Source of the DNA: Bacteroidales bacterium
GTDB taxonomy: Bacteria; Bacteroidota; Bacteroidia; Bacteroidales; UBA3663
Length of the DNA: 64,000 nt
Assembly (NCBI GenBank): GCA_017449065.1
Contig: JAFSKF010000052.1
Coordinates: 1 to 64,000 of the forward strand
Direction: 5' to 3'
Below are positions 3,228-51,008 of the stretch, one piece after another; the stretch's first letter is position 1, and every line of letters begins with the position of its first letter. The translations under genes and the position numbers were made by a program. Under the pieces are notes generated by a model that saw only the letters and a program-made list of their open reading frames with translations, made no database searches and was not told the origin of the DNA.

Positions 3228-6200
3228 TTATCGTTTGATGTACTTTTTCTGAGCCATACCCTGAGCCGATTTCAGCAGGACGATATAGACGCCCTTCGGC
3301 AGATTACTGTCGGCCGACAAGCGGCTGTAAACCAAACCGACCTGTGTATCGTAGTTTGCCACTACAGTACCATCCACCGCATAGACAGTTGCCTGAACCG
3401 GCGAATCATACTGCAACTGATTCACAGCTGTTGAAGCCTTTACGGTAAGCTTACCATTCGTAGAAAGCAGTTCGCTGGTGTCCCACACCAGACCTTCGGG
3501 CAGTTCGGGCAGCGTAACAACGGCCAACGATGTGTTGCTGCTATACTTGGTGCAGGAGTACAGGTCGTAGGTATCGCCCTCTTTGAAGGTTACACCTTCG
3601 TTGGCAAAGATCTCCAGATTACCCTTCAGGAGCAGAGCGCTGTTGATAGTCAGCTTGGCTACAGGTGTTGCTGCACTTACGCCATTCAGACGGAACTGCA
3701 AAGTGCCACCCGACTGAATTTCCACTTGTCCGTTCACGGTAAGTTTCGAAGCGAAACTATTACCCGGTGCAAATACACCACCCGACTTCACGACAATCTT
3801 ATTGCCCATAAAACCGCGACCCGTAACGGTACCGCCTTTATTCACAGTAATCAAACCGGTACCTGTGCCCGTTGATGTGGCAGAAGCAGAGTTATAGCTT
3901 CGAACGGCACCCTCGTTGATATTGATCGGGCCGGAACCTGTATTCTTGGTCATCGACATCGTACCTGTACCCACCTTATTGATGGTTGCATTCGAAATAC
4001 CGGCAAATGTGAAATCGGTATTCAACGAACCTACATTGAAACTGTTCGAAGACGAAGCGCCTGCCTGCAATGTGCCGGAACCGGTCAAAGCGCCAATGGT
4101 GAACGAACCGGTCGTATTCACATTATCGCCACCCAACTGAACCACGCTCGCTGCCTCGATATTCATCGTAGCCTTCGGCATACCATAGGTATTATTCAGC
4201 GAGAACGGACGATCAGCCGTACCGCACTTGAAGTTCACGGTTCCTTCGAATCCTGACCAGTCACCTCGGAAGGTGGTACGCGGACAGCTGGTATCGTTCG
4301 GGAGATTGAGTGTCAAAGTTCCACTTCCCTTCAGCGTATTGTAATAGTCGCATCGACGATCCAAACTTACCGTTGCCGAGCATCCTTCCGGCACAATCCA
4401 AGGAGACTCCTGGGTGCCATACGAGTAAGAACTGTCATCGAAATGCAGGGTTCCGCCACGCAGAATCACCGAATCGCCCAAGCAGTTGTTGACCGTAGAA
4501 TTCGTATTAAAGGTACCTGCCTGAATCTCGACGATCTTTGCTGTCGGAGTCGTCTCGAAACTCATTGCACCGTTACCCTGCTTGACGAGCTTGCCTCCGC
4601 TGAGAGCAGCTTGCTGGTTCCAGGAACCTGCTGTATAGATAATCGAAGAATCGCCCAAAACAATCGCATTCGGATTGGTGATATTGGAAAGACCCCACAA
4701 ACGGGCTCCGGTTTCAATCACAATCTTGGCTTCGTCTGGAGAATAGGCTCCCAAAGCACCATCGTTCTGAAGATCGGCAATCGAAGAAATCTTCACCGTA
4801 CCCTCCTGAATGAGCGTGCCTCCTGTATAATTGTTCACGTTGGCAATTGTAAGCGTACCGCTACCCTTCTTGATGAGCTTGCAGGCGCCGCCAATCTTGC
4901 CATCACCCTTGATGTTAACATTATAGGTACCCAAGATGGTCAAGCTGCCCGGTTCTACATCCTCAGCCACATTGATGGTGACTGCACCTGCAGAAGCATC
5001 GATGGTCACAAAATCGCCCGTTACGAACGAAACCTTCTGGTCGTCGATCATGAACGATTCGGTCTTATTCAGATCCCAGTCGCCGGAACCGCTATAGACG
5101 ATTTCGGTAGCCACGCGCATACTTTCTACCACCAAGACAATCTTATTGCCGTCCTGCTTCAAAGAGGCCGATAGACCTTTCAAGCCATCAACCGTAATCT
5201 TCGAAACATCGCCCTTGATGCCCTTGTTGGCTGTAATAAGCGTATATTCACCAGCAGTCAAAGTACCGGCACCAGTTCGACGGATATAGAAGGTAGGAGT
5301 TGCGCCGATACAGTTAGCATCGCCCAAAATCAGAGAATCGACAACCAACTGGTCAACGGCAGAACCGTCATTCTGAATATCAAATTCAATAATGGCACCA
5401 CCCTGCATATCAACCGTCTTGGCTGTAAGGTTGCCGATGGTGGCAGAATTGCCTGGATAAAGAGTTGCGCCATATTCCATCGTAACACCTCCCAAGGTGG
5501 CATTGCTGTTCACCTTCGAGAATCGCTTCATCATCAAAGGAGATGTCGTATAGGCATTGCTGAGATTCAGCGTACCATACCAAACTTCCGTATTGCCTGT
5601 ATGGTTGTAAGTACCGCCCGAAAGCGTCAAAGTTCCCTGACCTTGTTTCAGAATAGAGGTATTACCGGTGAAAGAACCGCCGGTAATCGTATAGTCGGCA
5701 GGAGAATTGATCTGCAGATAAGAAGGAGAAACCGAACCGGAAGCGGTTACCGTCGTATTGGTAGTTTCACAACCCAGAACGAACTGGTTATTGGTTGCCG
5801 ATGTCAGAGAAGTACCCAACATCTGCTTGCCATTCGTTACCGATGGTGGCGGAGGCAGCAAGATGCCTTCCAGGTTACCCAAGAAGTAACTTACATGAGG
5901 CGGCTGGTTGTAACCAGAAGGCTGCCAATAGATAGCCTGACGATACTGCGGATCGTGCATCAATGTATAGATGCGGAAATCAGTCGGATCGACCGTCGTA
6001 TAGATGCGGACAGAGCGGTTGTTAACGGTCGGCAGAATAAACTCTTCACGCCAATCACCGAAAATATCTGCCTGCACACAAGGATTACCCTTAGTGGAAT
6101 TGATGGTCAGACAGCCGGAAGTAGCAAAAAGCACCTTGCCTCCAGCCTTATTGTACTTACGCACACTCATGTCGTAACCCTGATAGTTCGACACTGAAAC

Positions 6201-42409: not shown

Positions 42410-42579
42410 ACTTTAACGGTAAGGAAACATTTTACATAGTTAGAGAACATTGGCCGCCCTACAGGAGAATCAATTTTTTCCTTGTAGGACGGTCTCGTTG
42501 TCCTTATAGTATAGCCAAGCACTTCCCATATCATTGCCTCGTCTTTCCCCCTACCGATGCTCGGCATATGCACGCTATT

Positions 42580-42633
42580 TGTTCGGTACATGTTCGGTAT
42601 ATGTTCGGTGTTTTACCGAACATATACCGAACA
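42580..42633. repeat. 11-bp direct repeat and 19-bp perfect palindrome
   Basis: TGTTCGGTAYA occurs at 42580 and 42591, and again in variant form (TGTTCGGTGT) at 42602. The segment 42591-42609 pairs perfectly with 42615-42633 around a 5-nt loop (GTTTT). No T-tract follows. It could be a transcription stop for the GH43 gene, or an operator for a dimeric regulator; function unknown. Confidence 0.7.
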
Positions 42634-42863
42634 AATGCCGTACCTGTACCGCATAATTACCGGCCAAGGATGGGTGCTAATTCTTGGCATCACTATGGCT
42701 ATGGCGAGACAAAGACTTGCTTGCGGTGCTATCTAATATAATCGAGGATAAACAGATCTGGTACTCAAAGAAATTCTGAGTGTTGAGAGAAAGCGATTGC
42801 TACACTGACTTGATTCTGTTGTTTTCGTCAATAACAAACTTAAAACTCCTTAGGAGAGATTTA

Positions 42864-42903
42864 AAACACGAAACCGCCCAATTGGTTGGACGATTTCGTG
42901 TTT
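42864..42903. terminator. hairpin inside the invertible segment, probable terminator
   Basis: AAACACGAAA (42864-42873) pairs with TTTCGTGTTT (42894-42903), and the stem continues inward with a few mismatches to a TTGG loop. It is followed by TCCTATTT. In the present orientation it shields the promoter from transcription entering from the GH43 side. Confidence 0.65.
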
Positions 42904-42997
42904 CCTATTTGGATAGTCTGCTTAACAAAACAAACTATTTTGTTTATGAACTATATTTAAAATGCTATAAATGAACAGCTGAATCAAATATTTTTCT

Positions 42998-43005
42998 TAT
43001 CTTTG
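42998..43005 (+). promoter_or_regulatory. -7 box of the glycan operon promoter, ON orientation
   Basis: TATCTTTG is a perfect TAnnTTTG match; transcription would start at about 43012, just before the right inverted repeat, and read into 43044. No convincing TTTG -33 box is seen 19-21 bp upstream. Confidence 0.7.
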
Positions 43006-43043
43006 TCCGAAATTTAAATCTCTCCTAAGGAGATATAAACAAA

Positions 43044-43976
43044 ATGTACAATTATTCAGGCGAAATAAACGACAAAAAGAGTATTGTCACAAAAGTCGGC
43101 ATTCTGATTAAGCGTCTTACTGGAATTCGCAATTTAACCGAATTCCGAAAGAAACTAAAGAAGGAATGTGGAAAACTCATTTGGCTCCGCAGCTATACCG
43201 CAGATGAACTCGTAAATCTCATGCAAGAAATGGGAATGAAAGAAGGAAGTATCGTTTGTATCCATTCTTCAATGAGAGAATTCTACAATTACAAAGGGTC
43301 TGCTCAAGAACTTATTGAGAAAATCATGCAAGTCATTACCCCTAATGGAACATTACTTATGCCTGCATATTCTTTTCAAGGCCGCGAACAACTTATGAAT
43401 CCGGATTTGATTTTTGATCCTCAAAAAGATAAAACAATCGCAGGTTATCTTGCTGAAACATTCCGGAAAATGGAAGGTGTTAGGCGAAGCATAAATGTCA
43501 GACATTCTGTCTGTGCATGGGGAAGGTATGCTAATTACCTTATTTGTGATCATCATAAAGGACGTAACTGTTGGGATGAGTATTCACCATGGTATCGCCT
43601 ATGCGAATTAGGAGGTCTTGTTTTTACTTTAGGATTACCGCGTTCTTTCATGGGAACATTTAACCATTGTGTTGAAGGGCTGTTAGCTCGCGAGCACCCC
43701 TATTGGGCACAATTTTTCAACAAGCGCATGACTTATCGCTATAGAGACGAGCATGGTCAAATTCAATCTTATACCTCTGATGAAAGTTTCATTGAAAGAC
43801 GCACTCATAAACGAGTAATCACACGTCATTTTGGTTCAGATATATATAAAATAAGACGTATCTCAAATCTTGAGATTAAACTTTTTCAAGCCCAACCATG
43901 CTTAAATATTATGCTTGAACTTGGTCGGAAAGGCATCAGTATGTATTACGTCCCCAAACCTTTGAAAAGTAAATAG
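43044..43976 (+). CDS. AAC(3)-family N-acetyltransferase of the surface-glycan locus
   Basis: The 310-residue product belongs to the aminoglycoside 3-N-acetyltransferase fold: GSIVCIHSSMREFYNYKGSA, LLMPAYSF, and SINVRHSVCAWGRYANYLIC carry the family's conserved Ser/His positions, and GLPRSFMGTFNHCVEG follows. Members inside polysaccharide loci acetylate an amino sugar or its lipid-linked precursor rather than a drug. It is first gene behind the invertible promoter, and the locus from here on is visibly AT-richer than the flanking housekeeping genes. Confidence 0.82.
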   Translation: MYNYSGEINDKKSIVTKVGILIKRLTGIRNLTEFRKKLKKECGKLIWLRSYTADELVNLMQEMGMKEGSIVCIHSSMREFYNYKGSAQELIEKIMQVITPNGTLLMPAYSFQGREQLMNPDLIFDPQKDKTIAGYLAETFRKMEGVRRSINVRHSVCAWGRYANYLICDHHKGRNCWDEYSPWYRLCELGGLVFTLGLPRSFMGTFNHCVEGLLAREHPYWAQFFNKRMTYRYRDEHGQIQSYTSDESFIERRTHKRVITRHFGSDIYKIRRISNLEIKLFQAQPCLNIMLELGRKGISMYYVPKPLKSK

Positions 43977-43984
43977 TTAATATT

Positions 43985-45325
43985 ATGTTTGACAATCCAC
44001 TTTTCAAAAATACGCTCAAGATGTCATTAAGCAATGTACTGATGTACTTTGTTCCGATTGTTGTTACCCCTATACTATCCCGCATGTACTCACAAGAAGC
44101 ATTTGGCGAATGGGGGGTGTTCTCCAGCACAATCGCTATACTTAGTGTGGGAATGTTCTGGGGATATGAACACGCAATTGTTAAGGCATCGTCTGAATCA
44201 GACGCACAACACGTCGGCATTATTTGCCTCATAAACAGTTTAATAACTATTTTATTTACAGTTCTCGCATTTGAAGTAGGAAGTACTACAAACGTTTCAT
44301 TCTTTCAATCATTTCCTGAAAAATATCTTCTTATTATATACCTCTTTATATATGCCCTTTATTTGATTCTATACAATTTCTGCAACCGACAAGAAAAATA
44401 TAATGTACTTGCCATCTCCCATGTGGTATTAGGAGGAAGCCAAGCTATATTCCGCATCTCTTTTGGACTAATTGTTCTCGTCACGGTCAATGGCCTCATA
44501 TTGGGAACCACTTTGGCTCAAGCACTAAACGTTCTTTTCATTTTAGTATGTCTAAAAGGGTTACTAAATAATATGAGATGGACTAGTTTTAGTATAGAAA
44601 AAGTCAAAGAATTATATCTTCAGAATCGTCGGTTTCCTTTGTACGATGCTCCAGCAAGTATAATGTCTTTTGCAGCATTCCAATCTCCCACTATCATACT
44701 TAGCCAATTCTTTACGAAAGCAGAAATTGGCTGCTTTTCTATTATCATACAACTTCTCCTCATGCCAATGTCCTTCATTGGGACAGCAATGGGGAAAGTT
44801 TATTATCAACAATTATGCAGGACACAAGGAGATTACGATGCCATAAGAGAAGTAAGTAAAAAAGTTGTAAACACGGTGTGTCTTATTTCAATTATGCCGT
44901 TGCTTTTTTTGTCTGTTGGCGGAGATCAACTTCTCGTTATTTTCCTTGGTGAAAAATGGACAGCATCAAGTGAAATTGCACTATGTCTAGCACTTTGGTC
45001 TTTTCCTACTATCTTGTCGCAACCTTTAATACCTTTGTATCGGAAATTGGATCGTCAAAAAAACCTACTTCTTTTCAATGCTCTTTATTTCATTGGCGGC
45101 GTAGGATCTATCACGTATGGTTGTCTATCGGGAAGACCCCTGAGTCTCATTTTGCTAATCTTTTCTTTAGTGACAGCTCTCTGTAAATTCTGCATGTTTA
45201 CGAATTTGCTTAAACTCTGCGGTCTGGGATATAAACAATTAAACAAATACATTGTCTTTCTTTGGCTAATAAGCATTATGCTCTTGGCGATTCGCATAAA
45301 AGACATTGTAACGGTTTCCATTTGA
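43985..45325 (+). CDS. wzx: O-antigen/capsule flippase (Wzx family)
   Basis: The 446-residue product is almost entirely hydrophobic with about twelve membrane segments (VLMYFVPIVVTPILSRMYSQ, YLLIIYLFIYALYLILYNF, LVLVTV..., LLPLFLSVG and others) and the FGEWGVFSS segment common near the N-terminus of polysaccharide flippases. It would move the lipid-linked repeat unit across the inner membrane. It follows the acetyltransferase gene by eight bases. Confidence 0.9.
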   Translation: MFDNPLFKNTLKMSLSNVLMYFVPIVVTPILSRMYSQEAFGEWGVFSSTIAILSVGMFWGYEHAIVKASSESDAQHVGIICLINSLITILFTVLAFEVGSTTNVSFFQSFPEKYLLIIYLFIYALYLILYNFCNRQEKYNVLAISHVVLGGSQAIFRISFGLIVLVTVNGLILGTTLAQALNVLFILVCLKGLLNNMRWTSFSIEKVKELYLQNRRFPLYDAPASIMSFAAFQSPTIILSQFFTKAEIGCFSIIIQLLLMPMSFIGTAMGKVYYQQLCRTQGDYDAIREVSKKVVNTVCLISIMPLLFLSVGGDQLLVIFLGEKWTASSEIALCLALWSFPTILSQPLIPLYRKLDRQKNLLLFNALYFIGGVGSITYGCLSGRPLSLILLIFSLVTALCKFCMFTNLLKLCGLGYKQLNKYIVFLWLISIMLLAIRIKDIVTVSI

Positions 45326-45352
45326 TGTCTCATTAAATAACACAATAGCGAT

Positions 45353-46630
45353 ATGTTATCCGACAGAGTTTATTCAACGCTTAACCTTTTTTTTGCGATT
45401 ATAGGCTATCAATTTGCTACTTGCTTAGCAATGCCTATATATGGAGGAGACATTATGGGAGCGACCAATAAAGTTACCATTCCATATCGTCTATTTACGA
45501 TGTTACTTGCCACAATCGTTATTGTACGAAGTTTTATTTTGCAGAAGAACTTAACTTTTAATTTGAATCGGACAATCAAACTCCTAACCTTCTTTTGGGC
45601 TTTATGGATTCTTAGACTATTTTACGATTTGGAAATCAGGTTTGATTTCGACATTCTACCAGATGAAACTTCCCGTGTATGGATGTACGTTTTTTTGCTT
45701 TGTCTTTACAGTGCCTTCTCGATTGCTGTCAGTTTTGATAAAATTGATCTGCATTTAGCATTTCGCCTTACTGCCTTTGCTATCACCATTTGTTTATTAA
45801 TCTCGCTTATTTACAACCCGCTTCTTCTGGCTAATACAGAAGAAATCATGATGAGGGTGGATGGCAATGCTGCCTTAGGAACCATTGCCTTTGGACAAAT
45901 GGGGTTAACTGCAATAATCATAGGAGCATGCATGATGCGTACAGAACATCATACGTTTTTGAAATATATCATTCCTGTTTTTTTAATCTCTGTTGGCTCT
46001 CTTATCACTTTGCGAGCTGGAAGTAGAGGTCCTTTGTTAAGTCTTTGTTGTGTAGTTGCATTCGTTATTATAACAAGCAATAAAAAACCACTGCTGGGAT
46101 TCTTTTTAGCTTTCCTTTTTATCAGTTTTTTGAACTTTTTTTTGCGAGATATCATTATGATGATTGCAAATGTCGCTCCCGTTCTTGCTGAGCGACTAAT
46201 AAACACTTCTTCCGATGATGGCAGAACCATTCTATACCAAGAAGCTATAAAATCATTCTTGCAACATCCATTTTTCGGTGATCGATTTGCCATAATTTAC
46301 TCTGACAAAACATTTATATATTCCCATAATATGATTCTTGATGCATTTATGGGTACAGGAATACTAGGTGGAATAATCTTTATCGCCATGTATGTTTCAG
46401 TAATTATGGACGGATACAAGTTGATAAAATCCGATCGAAAAAAATATATGTGGATTGTATTGATTTTAATACAACAGATGGCTGCTGGCATGACCTCTAG
46501 CGCCTTTTACCTAAAACCCATTCTCACCATTCTTATCATATTTTTAGCTTTGTCTTCCATAGATGACAGACTCAAGAAAAAAACAATCAAAAAGAAATAC
46601 AAATATGAAACAGAAAGTCTACCTTTATAA
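45353..46630 (+). CDS. wzy: O-antigen polymerase (Wzy-like)
   Basis: The 425-residue membrane protein has about ten to twelve hydrophobic segments and a long periplasmic loop. SLITLRAGSRGPLLSLCCVV matches the arginine-containing motif typical of Wzy/WaaL-type polymerases and ligases, and HPFFGDRFAIIYSDKTFIYS HNMILDAFMG is the conserved H-N periplasmic region of that family. It should join repeat units in the periplasm. Its last codons overlap the following frame by 26 bp. Confidence 0.85.
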   Translation: MLSDRVYSTLNLFFAIIGYQFATCLAMPIYGGDIMGATNKVTIPYRLFTMLLATIVIVRSFILQKNLTFNLNRTIKLLTFFWALWILRLFYDLEIRFDFDILPDETSRVWMYVFLLCLYSAFSIAVSFDKIDLHLAFRLTAFAITICLLISLIYNPLLLANTEEIMMRVDGNAALGTIAFGQMGLTAIIIGACMMRTEHHTFLKYIIPVFLISVGSLITLRAGSRGPLLSLCCVVAFVIITSNKKPLLGFFLAFLFISFLNFFLRDIIMMIANVAPVLAERLINTSSDDGRTILYQEAIKSFLQHPFFGDRFAIIYSDKTFIYSHNMILDAFMGTGILGGIIFIAMYVSVIMDGYKLIKSDRKKYMWIVLILIQQMAAGMTSSAFYLKPILTILIIFLALSSIDDRLKKKTIKKKYKYETESLPL

Positions 46631-47369
46631 TCAGTTTACAAATTCATCTCAAAAGTTACTGGCATACTATGTGGCAGTAATAATCTGGACTTGCGCATGT
46701 GTTACAGCCAATGCTGAAAACAACGTCTTGCAAAAGCCCAATCTGAAAGTCCTTGACATCGGTAACAGCTACACTAACGATGCAACTGCCCTACTGCCAA
46801 AGATTGTTGCTGCCAGCGGTTCCGACATCAGCGATTTATGTCTTTACAAGGCAACACGCGGAAGCGGGAGTTTCAAGAGCTGGTATGACCTTTACAACGA
46901 CAATGACAACACAACCTATACCATAGCAAAGGTTATGGGTGGCATCAATGCCAATATCACCACCGGCAACGGGGAGGCCGGCGACGGCACTCACTGCGAA
47001 GTAGGTTTGTGCAGATATACGGCGGCCTGTTGCTACTACGAATCACTGATAGCGCCGCGCAGCGGAATCTCCGCTCTTGGTAACACATTCAGATATGATG
47101 CTTCAAAAACTGAAACGACCTATCCGAATGTCAGCGTTACCGACGAAAATGCGCTCATTGCACAGACAGCCGCTATCCTTGCAACCGAGAACTGGTACGA
47201 ATGCATCAACCCAGAGACAAGGATTACAGGTATTCATCCTATAAACAATAGTTCAATGGGTGGAAATATAACCATTTACGACTTAAATGGAATCAGGGCA
47301 TCATCAGCGACCAGAGGCATCAAAATTATCCGTGGAGCGGATGGAACCACAAAAAAAATATTGCACTAA
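46605..47369 (+). pseudogene. chimeric, internally deleted DUF4886-like secreted protein
   Basis: From the ATG at 46605 the 254-residue product opens with MKQKVYLYNQFTNSS and a signal-like segment (YYVAVIIWTCACVTANAEN). PNLKVLDIGNSYTNDATALL is the start of a DUF4886 (SGNH-like hydrolase) domain, and GDGTHCEVGLCRYTAACCYY its very end; the middle part, which normally holds about 120 residues including the WDYISLQQ block, is missing. The C-terminus (IYDLNGIRASSATRGIKIIR) resembles a T9SS-type tail. The first 33 bases match the start of the next glycosyltransferase gene at 24 positions. The GC-richer core contrasts with its AT-rich neighbours. Most likely a decayed insertion; expression as a small protein cannot be excluded. 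Confidence 0.65.
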
Positions 47370-47374
47370 AGACA

Positions 47375-48481
47375 ATGCAACATAAAGTCTGCTTTTTCAA
47401 TCAAAGTTCTGTGCACTATCGCAAGAACATCTTTATGCTTATGGACCAAGAGGGCATAGACTTCTATTTTGGTGACTCGCGAAAGCAAGGAGCCATTAAG
47501 GAGCTTGACACAACTTGCCTCAAAAACTTCAAAGGATATTTTCATAATATCGGTTTTGGATCTGTCTATTGGCAAAATGGAGCTATCAAGTTGTTATGGA
47601 GCGATTACACCGACCTCTTTACCACTGCAACTCATTACTGTCTTTCTGCTTGGGTCATCCTACTGTTAGCGCCCCTCTTTGGCAAACGCGTATATCTGTG
47701 GTCGCACGGAGCATACGGGGACGAGCGGGGACTAAAAAAATGGCTTACAAAATGGAAAATGAAACGCGCCACAGGTTCTCTCCTCTATGGAAACTACGCA
47801 AAAAGAATTCTATTGGAATGGGGCGTACCTGATGAAAAACTGCATGTATTCTACAACTCATTGGCTTACGATGAAGAAATAGAGATTCGTAAGGGGCTTG
47901 CTCTTTCTGCCTTTTATCAGGATCATTTTGGCAACAACCGACTCAACTTAGTCTTTATCGGAAGACTTACTCCAGTCAAGAAGCTGGACATGATTGTTCA
48001 GGCTATGGCAATACTTCGAGATCGTGGCATTGAGACAAACTTGACTTATGTGGGTGACGGACCTAAAAGACATGAACTCGAAAGCCTCGTTACTGAACTG
48101 GGGTTGGACAATAACGTATGGTTCTTCGGTTCATGTTATGATGAAAGACAGATAGCTCAAATTATCTATAATGCAGACCTCTGTGTTTCCCCAGGCGATG
48201 TAGGGCTGACTGCCATGCACGCTATGACATTCGGCACTCCAGTCATCAGTCACGACAACTTCTGTCACCAGATGCCAGAATTTGAAGCAATAGAAGAAGG
48301 TAGAACTGGCAGTTTCTTCCACGAAAACGATGTGGAAAGTTTGGCTGATTGTATTCAATCGTGGCTCTCCAACGGATTGAACAGAGAACAGATAAGGCAA
48401 AACTGCTACGATGTCATCGACCATAAATACAATCCTCATCTCCAGATGGAAATGATACGCAAGGTAATATTTAAAGACTGA
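47375..48481 (+). CDS. glycosyltransferase, family 4 (GT-B)
   Basis: The 368-residue product has a GT-B fold. The C-terminal half contains [49 protein letters not shown] and [20 protein letters not shown], the nucleotide-sugar-binding signature of GT4. It transfers a sugar to the lipid-linked repeat unit at the cytoplasmic face. Donor and acceptor cannot be read. It starts five bases after the chimeric DUF4886 frame. Confidence 0.92.
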
Positions 48482-48486
48482 TAATT

Positions 48487-49143
48487 ATGCTACAATACCT
48501 ATCTTCTATTATCTCGCCAAAAAAGTTATTATATAAGGACATTTCTTTACTATCCTATTGGGATAGAAGGAGCACCTTTACCCCTTACACTTCTCTGCAA
48601 CGATACTCCAAGCTACTCAATTCACACGTCGGAAAGTACTCAAGAATCTGCATCAATACACACTTGCTCAATACAACGGTGGGCAACTTCAGTCTTATCT
48701 CTCGAGACACTTTAGTGGGATTGGGCGCACATCCGACCAACTTACTTAGCCCACACTCCATTTTCTATAGAAAAGGACGATGGAAATGGCATCCTGAATG
48801 GAGTGACGGCGCGATTTTTCAGGAAGAGGACTATCCTATAACAATAGGAAATGGAGTATGGGTGGCGCGAGGTTGCATTATCATGGACGGAGTCACTATT
48901 GGAGACGGAGCCATTATCGCAGCTGGTGCTGTGGTCACAAAAGATGTTCCTCCGTTTGCTGTTGTTGGCGGTGTGCCAGCCCGTGTATTAAAATATAGGT
49001 TTCCCGAGGAAACAATTAACAGGTTGCTGAAAATTCAGTGGTGGAATCTGCCCGATGATGAAATTACACGTGTTAAGAATCTTTTCCACATACCTAATCC
49101 GACAATAGAGGACATAGATACTTTTTTCCCTGGTTTTGAATAA
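48487..49143 (+). CDS. hexapeptide-repeat O-acetyltransferase
   Basis: The 218-residue product has a left-handed beta-helix: [20 protein letters not shown] followed by [20 protein letters not shown] and [15 protein letters not shown], the classical maltose/WcaF-type C-terminal motif. The N-terminal third is a helical lead-in. It should O-acetylate the glycan repeat unit. It is encoded five bases after the GT4 gene. Confidence 0.9.
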
Positions 49144-49176
49144 TTACAGAGCAATGGCATACAAAGGCATACAGCA

Positions 49177-49932
49177 ATGAGAATATCGATTATAACGGCG
49201 ACCTACAACAGCGAAAAGACAGTGCGAGATACGCTCGAAAGTATTTTGGCACAAACCTATCAGGACATCGAAAGTATCATCGTGGACGGTGCATCCAAGG
49301 ATGGCACCATGGATATTGTTCGTGAATACGAACCACGTTTTCAAGGCAGAATGCATTGGATCTGTGAACCAGACAAAGGTCTCTATGATGCTATGAATAA
49401 AGGCATACAGATGGCAAGTGGCGATATAATCGGACTACTGAATTCCGATGATTTCTATACATCTCACAATGTATTAGAAACTGTTGTAAGATCATTTAAA
49501 AACAATGATATAGATGCCTGTTATGGAGATGTTCATTATGTAGCAGACAACAATCTTGGCAAATGCATCCGCTATTACTCGTCAGCGAAATTCACACCAG
49601 AACGGATGATGTATGGCTACATGCCCGCTCACCCTTCGTTCTACTGCAGTAGGGAAATATATCATAAGTACGGACTCTTTGATATCTCTTTCAAAATAGC
49701 TGCGGATTTCGAACAACTGCTACGGCTTATATATATTGAAAGAATTAGGATTAAATACATTCCAATGGATTTTGTAACGATGCGAATGGGTGGGGCATCA
49801 ACCTCAGGTATTCGAGTCCGGATAAAAATTATGAAAGAGCATTTAAGGGGTTTCCGTAAGAATGGAATCCGCAATAATTTCTTTAGACTTTCATTAAGAT
49901 ATTTTGGTAAAATTTTAGAATATATACACTAA
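49177..49932 (+). CDS. glycosyltransferase, family 2 (GT-A)
   Basis: The 251-residue product starts MRISIITATYNSEKTVRDTL, with VDGASKDGT and the metal-binding LNSDDFY motif (DxD position), then AHPSFYCSREIYHKYGLFD, as in WcaE-like transferases. It adds a sugar to the repeat unit. Together with the GT4 and the WecA-type initiator it suggests a repeat unit of about three sugars. Confidence 0.93.
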   Translation: MRISIITATYNSEKTVRDTLESILAQTYQDIESIIVDGASKDGTMDIVREYEPRFQGRMHWICEPDKGLYDAMNKGIQMASGDIIGLLNSDDFYTSHNVLETVVRSFKNNDIDACYGDVHYVADNNLGKCIRYYSSAKFTPERMMYGYMPAHPSFYCSREIYHKYGLFDISFKIAADFEQLLRLIYIERIRIKYIPMDFVTMRMGGASTSGIRVRIKIMKEHLRGFRKNGIRNNFFRLSLRYFGKILEYIH

Positions 49933-49937
49933 TAATT

Positions 49938-51008
49938 ATGGCGCATGATATTTATCCTGTAGTAGTCATTTTTGGGGTATCGCTACTTGTCGCAATACTG
50001 CTATACCGTCCCATCTTGAGTGTTTCCAGAAAACTGAACATCTATGACAATCCAGAGGCACGGAAACTCCAAAAGGTTCCTGTCCCTGTAATGGGAGGCT
50101 TCGTAGGTTTCACAGGAACGATTGCCGGATCTCTTTGTCTTGGTGCCATTTACGACTACAAGACCATCATCCCCCTTATAGTGGCCATGCTGATAATGTT
50201 GGCCGCAGGAGCGTGGGATGATATCCGAAATCTATCTCCATACACGAAGTTCATCATAGAAATCATTGTGGTTCTATCGCTGGCTTATGTCAACGAAAGT
50301 CCTTTGAATGACTTCCACGGTCTATGGGGCGTTCATGAGATATCGCCATGGATAGCGTGGCCGCTGACAGTTGTAGCATGTGTGGGAATCATCAACGCTA
50401 TCAATATGGCTGACGGAATCGACGGTCTCTCGTCGGGTTTCTGCATCATGATCTTCACTTTCTTTTCCTGGCAGTTATTCAGATCTCATGACTTTGTCCG
50501 TGCGGCTTTTGGTCTGACGATAGTTGGAAGTCTTATCCCATTCTTTATCATGAACGTATTCAGTCGGAAAGCAAAAATGTTCATTGGAGATGCAGGCACG
50601 ATGATGCTTGGCATTGCTATATGCGACTTCGTAATGGCCATTCTGACCAAAGACTCGCCATCAGCCTTGTTTTTCGACAAAAAAGATGTCTGCCTTATTG
50701 CCTTTGTTCTGGCCGTGCTGGGCATTCCTGTTTTCGACACACTCAGAGTAATGTTTGGTCGCATCATGCACGGCTGCTCTCCTTTCCGTCCAGACAAGAC
50801 CCACCTTCACCACGCCTTTCTCGATTACGGATTCCACCATCTGGAAATAACTCTTATGGAGATTCTTCTCAACATGCTCATCATCTTCTTCTGGATGGCA
50901 TTAGACAGTTCTCACTTTTCCATAGAGTGGCAGTTGTATGGAGTAATCGCGGCAAACATAGCATGTACCTTTGGACTTTATTGGATATTACTCCACCTTA
51001 AAAAATAA
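49938..51008 (+). CDS. initiating sugar-phosphate transferase, MraY/WecA family
   Basis: The 356-residue integral membrane protein has about eleven helices and the family motifs AAGAWDDIRNL (aspartates for Mg binding), INAINMADGIDGLSSGFC, FIGDAGTMMLG and RPDKTHLHHAFLDYG. It transfers an N-acetylhexosamine 1-phosphate to undecaprenyl phosphate and so starts the glycan. Its place as last gene of the operon is common in Bacteroides capsule loci. The tolC-like gene converges from the right with only two bases between, and no terminator is visible. Confidence 0.93.
   Translation: MAHDIYPVVVIFGVSLLVAILLYRPILSVSRKLNIYDNPEARKLQKVPVPVMGGFVGFTGTIAGSLCLGAIYDYKTIIPLIVAMLIMLAAGAWDDIRNLSPYTKFIIEIIVVLSLAYVNESPLNDFHGLWGVHEISPWIAWPLTVVACVGIINAINMADGIDGLSSGFCIMIFTFFSWQLFRSHDFVRAAFGLTIVGSLIPFFIMNVFSRKAKMFIGDAGTMMLGIAICDFVMAILTKDSPSALFFDKKDVCLIAFVLAVLGIPVFDTLRVMFGRIMHGCSPFRPDKTHLHHAFLDYGFHHLEITLMEILLNMLIIFFWMALDSSHFSIEWQLYGVIAANIACTFGLYWILLHLKK

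Follow-up and report, generated by a model that had tools for sequence, protein, structure and literature searches.

In Bacteroides fragilis, the tyrosine recombinase Tsr19 (BF2766) inverts both a local promoter, lying directly 3′ of its own gene, and a distant one (PMC4747536). The serine recombinase Mpi of the same species inverts many capsular polysaccharide (PS) promoters (PMC4747536). Lower expression in B. fragilis accompanies a larger number of repeat copies between promoter and gene (PMC4747536). Invertases encoded directly 5′ of invertible promoters have been widely described in the Bacteroidales, including ones that regulate resistance genes (PMC8748976, PMC11892184). Termination at or near the invertible element plays a part in two other tyrosine-recombinase switches, Clostridioides difficile cwpV (RecV) and Escherichia coli fim (PMC2784873).

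We analysed a 64-kb stretch of Bacteroidales DNA (the window). A 187-bp module in it (42846–43032) belongs, with near certainty, to a familiar class of gut Bacteroidales elements that turn genes on and off reversibly. By layout, its nearest counterpart among published systems is the pair of B. fragilis Tsr19/BF2766 switches IVp-I and IVp-II (PMC4747536, PMC3090145). In both cases a tyrosine recombinase is encoded directly 5′ of an invertible promoter, a distant promoter is also inverted (here by prediction) and a glycan operon is the target; in the present genome inverted repeats surround a predicted promoter, and a tyrosine recombinase gene sits beside a matching module. Unlike in the Tsr19 system, the genome studied here holds at least seven copies of the module, and the window copy carries a hairpin opposite the promoter. 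With the Mpi-controlled PS promoters the locus shares inverted repeats round a promoter, an association with Wzx/Wzy loci and probably one master enzyme for many loci. It differs from them in that the evidence favours a tyrosine recombinase and that the operon opens with an Antibiotic_NAT-like gene and a flippase gene, neither of them recognisably UpxY/UpxZ-like. Compared by description, the other Bacteroidales promoters resemble it in having an invertase immediately 5′, TAnnTTTG within the segment and repeat motifs that are similar within the group. Tyrosine-recombinase inversion with terminator involvement, putative here, is common to cwpV and fim; the cwpV promoter lies outside the segment, whereas in the window promoter and putative terminator would occupy opposite ends of one segment. 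The locus would then be a known kind of switch, with the opposed hairpin as a possible variation on it.

Inverted repeats and sister modules

An earlier note on this DNA had described perfect 20-bp inverted repeats 147 bp apart, and we found these again at the same coordinates, far beyond chance expectation. The left arm, CTCCTTAGGAGAGATTTAAA, occupies 42846–42865 on the plus strand and is a predicted recombination site with homologous arms in the sister modules; the right arm, its exact reverse complement, lies at 43013–43032 on the minus strand and includes the AAGGAG preceding the ATG of the first operon gene. Between them lies the putatively invertible segment of 147 bp (42866–43012, no strand assigned). 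Stretched to 26 bp, the arms are 92% complementary. The 42846/43013 pair is the one perfect inverted repeat of at least 18 bp with a spacing of up to 600 bp in the 64 kb; none appeared, even at 14 bp, in ten windows generated at random from a Markov model of matching composition. The repeat core had been called palindromic; it is better read as two half-sites, CTC and GAG, flanking a 7-bp spacer, as in the left-arm core CTC-CTTAGGA-GAG at 42846–42858.

A search for further copies of the repeat, which the note had proposed, identified at least six sister copies when the genome's own contigs were queried with the window arm and, in a second round, with one of the sisters. Related modules were present on contigs C8, C15, C40 and C36, with two partial ones at contig ends (C36 and C41). 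The four sisters that could be cut at both arms measured 188–189 bp, about the length of the window module. The 147-bp middle of the window module aligned with theirs over its full length and without gaps at around 60% identity, compared with a mean of 28% and a maximum of 41% for shuffled sequences. Three changes (TCTGGG to TTAGGA) set the window arms apart from the sisters, giving a spacer of CTTAGGA in the window and CTCTGGG in the sisters; that the changes are the same in the left and the right arm suggests that the two arms have kept exchanging with each other through recombination.

The modules on C8 and C15 have similar left and right flanks and lie in opposite orientations. When the C8 module was inverted in silico, it matched C15 at 186/189 positions; uninverted, it matched at 89/189. 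This pair, a comparison of two loci of one assembly, gives the most direct sign of inversion. Both orientations thus occur among sisters with matching flanks; the window copy is seen in one, in a single assembly. That assembly, in 55 contigs, is incomplete and broken at several of these repeats, so the sister flank pairings could include misassembly. Across 393 genomes of the order, no genome other than the window's own matched the strict paired-site pattern, and the sister arm had no match in viral contigs.

Several features of the sister loci were recorded alongside. Left-flank-like sequence stands on both sides of the C40 module, inverted relative to each other (L008:1-290, G000:C40), an arrangement that either recombination between two module loci or misassembly would be expected to leave; by eye, this module comes after the 3′ end of a gene run including sugar-metabolism and polysaccharide-export-like products. 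Behind an OFF-oriented sister on C36, a composite open reading frame (L067:2120-2836; G000:C36:117119-117832) joins the shared flank peptide, a weak Dam methyltransferase-like stretch (E 0.071) and a GAPDH C-terminal domain without its N-terminal half, with other GAPDH matches on C12 and C53; we take it to be a rearrangement or a misassembly. The idea that the sisters sit inside an IS4-family transposon, raised by their common right flank (FQYIKARFTDVFSLSLHSKMRCP), was dropped, as the encoded peptide had no Pfam or NCBIfam match.

Promoter and hairpin within the segment

A predicted Bacteroidetes-type −7 box, TATCTTTG (TAnnTTTG), lies at 42998–43005 on the plus strand, ending 7 bp from the right arm, and is similarly placed in the recombinase-linked relatives described below. 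Its position and its direction into the operon agreed with the earlier reading, by which the copy as assembled would be ON. A conserved AGCTGAWTCAAATATTTT stretch precedes the box. By-eye inspection upstream of the box yielded no good candidate for a −33 TTTG. A sigma-70 scan is expected to tell little about a Bacteroidetes-type promoter, and that of the window promoter was uninformative. The leader of an ON transcript would include the right arm, which folds weakly (−5.9 kcal/mol).

At the opposite end, a terminator-like hairpin with a U-rich tail (42862–42903, minus strand; ΔG −27.7 kcal/mol, z −7.4) reads outward through the left arm; the plus-strand fold of the same stretch is weaker (−18.1 kcal/mol). 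The sister modules have a hairpin at the matching place whose sequence is unrelated to the window's: similarity between the stems is at chance level, and a hairpin is nonetheless present in both groups. In the flipped segment this putative terminator would face the operon and could block read-through. If it is a true terminator, a flip would insulate the OFF state besides removing the promoter. A further reading, which we rate as somewhat less likely than not, is that the module is a two-ended toggle, with a promoter at one end and an intrinsic terminator at the other, so that each flip would swap active transcription for active insulation, and that it spreads among loci, or is kept uniform across them, as a cassette whose flanks are at times swapped between loci.

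Candidate recombinases and competing explanations

The note had reported no recombinase gene in the window, and indeed the whole window contig (C48) contained no PF00589 and no PF00239 match. The search it proposed elsewhere in the genome identified, on another contig, a 400-amino-acid tyrosine recombinase (PF13102 and PF00589; C36:164176-165375) whose stop codon is 17 bp from the start of a partial sister module. In total the genome encodes five PF00589 proteins, this enzyme and four more, and one PF00239 protein. At E ≤ 1e-50 the C36 recombinase was absent from the 14 other members of the genus searched. Its relatives came from two sources: a scan, in which the named ones belong to Segatella, Prevotella, Porphyromonadaceae and Bacteroidales metagenome-assembled genomes (MAGs), and a search of 393 genomes of the order, 31 of which had a match at E ≤ 1e-80. 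These names, along with the promoter type, point to Bacteroidales as the source.

We examined 700 bp on either side of the homologous genes for perfect repeats of at least 13 bp spaced 60–450 bp apart. Such a pair lay 3′ of the recombinase in 13 of 26 loci and 5′ in none; three of the 26 had little downstream sequence. Adding L077 and L082 to the 13 gave 15 segments, among which TAnnTTTG occurred 4–20 bp inside an arm in 14, some facing right and most left. The arms carried CTC-N7-GAG in 9/15 (shuffled-arm mean 0.015), the motif having first been noticed on L077, L082 and the own-genome sites and then counted in the remaining segments. Within 55-nt stretches, none of the 15 contained a hairpin of stability comparable to the window's. 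L077 itself (4830-5856, a Prevotella MAG) encodes a related recombinase; beside it are a segment bounded by inverted repeats, in which a promoter box is present, and then an open reading frame that looks UpxY/NusG-like by eye and has no Pfam match.

Taken together, the recombination site in the window, its sisters elsewhere in the genome and the C36 enzyme next to one of them point to a tyrosine-recombinase switch like that of Tsr19 more than to an Mpi system. We consider it likely that a tyrosine recombinase, most probably the C36 enzyme, inverts the 147 bp and so controls the Wzx/Wzy operon, which would be ON as assembled. The anatomy, the homologous modules, both orientations among the sisters and the linkage of the recombinase family to such segments are observed; from these we infer inversion of the window copy, the identity of its enzyme and the activity of promoter and terminator. 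The recombinase would bind CTC-N7-GAG in both arms and invert the DNA lying between them. In the ON state the promoter would fire into the glycan operon; in the OFF state it would point away, with the hairpin now facing the operon and stopping read-through from upstream. The C36 enzyme probably flips the sister modules too, which would generate a population of mixed surface states. At its own locus, the OFF promoter would read backwards into the 3′ part of the recombinase gene, which might create feedback of the fim kind. The proposal of a phase-variable promoter with its invertase encoded elsewhere thus gains comparative support, with the window copy known in one orientation. As for the B. 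fragilis capsule-promoter model, its layout fits, whereas its serine enzyme (Mpi) does not, should the C36 tyrosine recombinase be responsible. The C36 enzyme and the window site would form a testable pair for a phase-variation network in a Bacteroidales-like genus. Other genomes could be screened for such switches by looking for a CTC-N7-GAG core immediately 3′ of a recombinase gene.

Because the window spacer differs from that of the sisters, the C36 enzyme might act poorly on the window copy, and the flipping could instead be done by any of the genome's four further tyrosine recombinases or, in an Mpi-like case, by its single serine recombinase. We judge this unlikely: none of these genes adjoins a promoter-sized inverted-repeat pair in the regions examined (3.4 kb around the PF00239 gene), whereas a homologous module directly adjoins the gene of the C36 enzyme, and CTC-N7-GAG is common to the sites of that enzyme's relatives. 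The different spacer, the roughly 60% identity to the sisters over 147 bp and the visibly degenerate arm of one sister (C36:116928-117128) would also fit a decayed copy, homologous by descent, that has lost recombination and is locked ON; with the window arms still perfect and changed in concert, and the promoter stretch and a hairpin kept, this is less probable again. A small MITE-like inverted-repeat insertion with an outward promoter and no inversion switch, as might be suggested by homology to the sisters ending at about the repeats and by several near-identical copies at separate loci, is very improbable given that C8 and C15 share flanks on both sides of a reversed module and that in many genomes such segments immediately follow genes of the linked recombinase family.

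The downstream glycan operon

The operon that an inversion of the 147 bp would control had been described as eight glycan genes, and we found eight tightly spaced plus-strand genes of Wzx/Wzy type at 43044–51008. They encode an Antibiotic_NAT (aminoglycoside 3-N-acetyltransferase-like) protein (43044–43976), a Wzx-type flippase (43985–45325), a member of the Wzy_C/O-antigen ligase–polymerase family (45353–46630), a DUF4886 protein (46563–47369), a group 1 glycosyltransferase (47375–48481), a hexapeptide acetyltransferase (48487–49143), a family 2 glycosyltransferase (49177–49932) and a WecA-like undecaprenyl-phosphate sugar-phosphate transferase (49938–51008). A flippase, a polymerase/ligase family protein, glycosyltransferases and an initiating transferase, as characterise a Wzx/Wzy glycan locus, are thus all present. 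The first gene had no match at E ≤ 1e-60 in 59 other genomes and scores far under the curated AAC(3) cut-offs; its product is more probably a sugar-modifying acetyltransferase here. Upstream of the module, 3′ of a GH43 gene, an imperfect long hairpin at 42562–42651 (38-nt arms, 82%, with TTCGGTA/TACCGAA units) is possibly the terminator of that gene.
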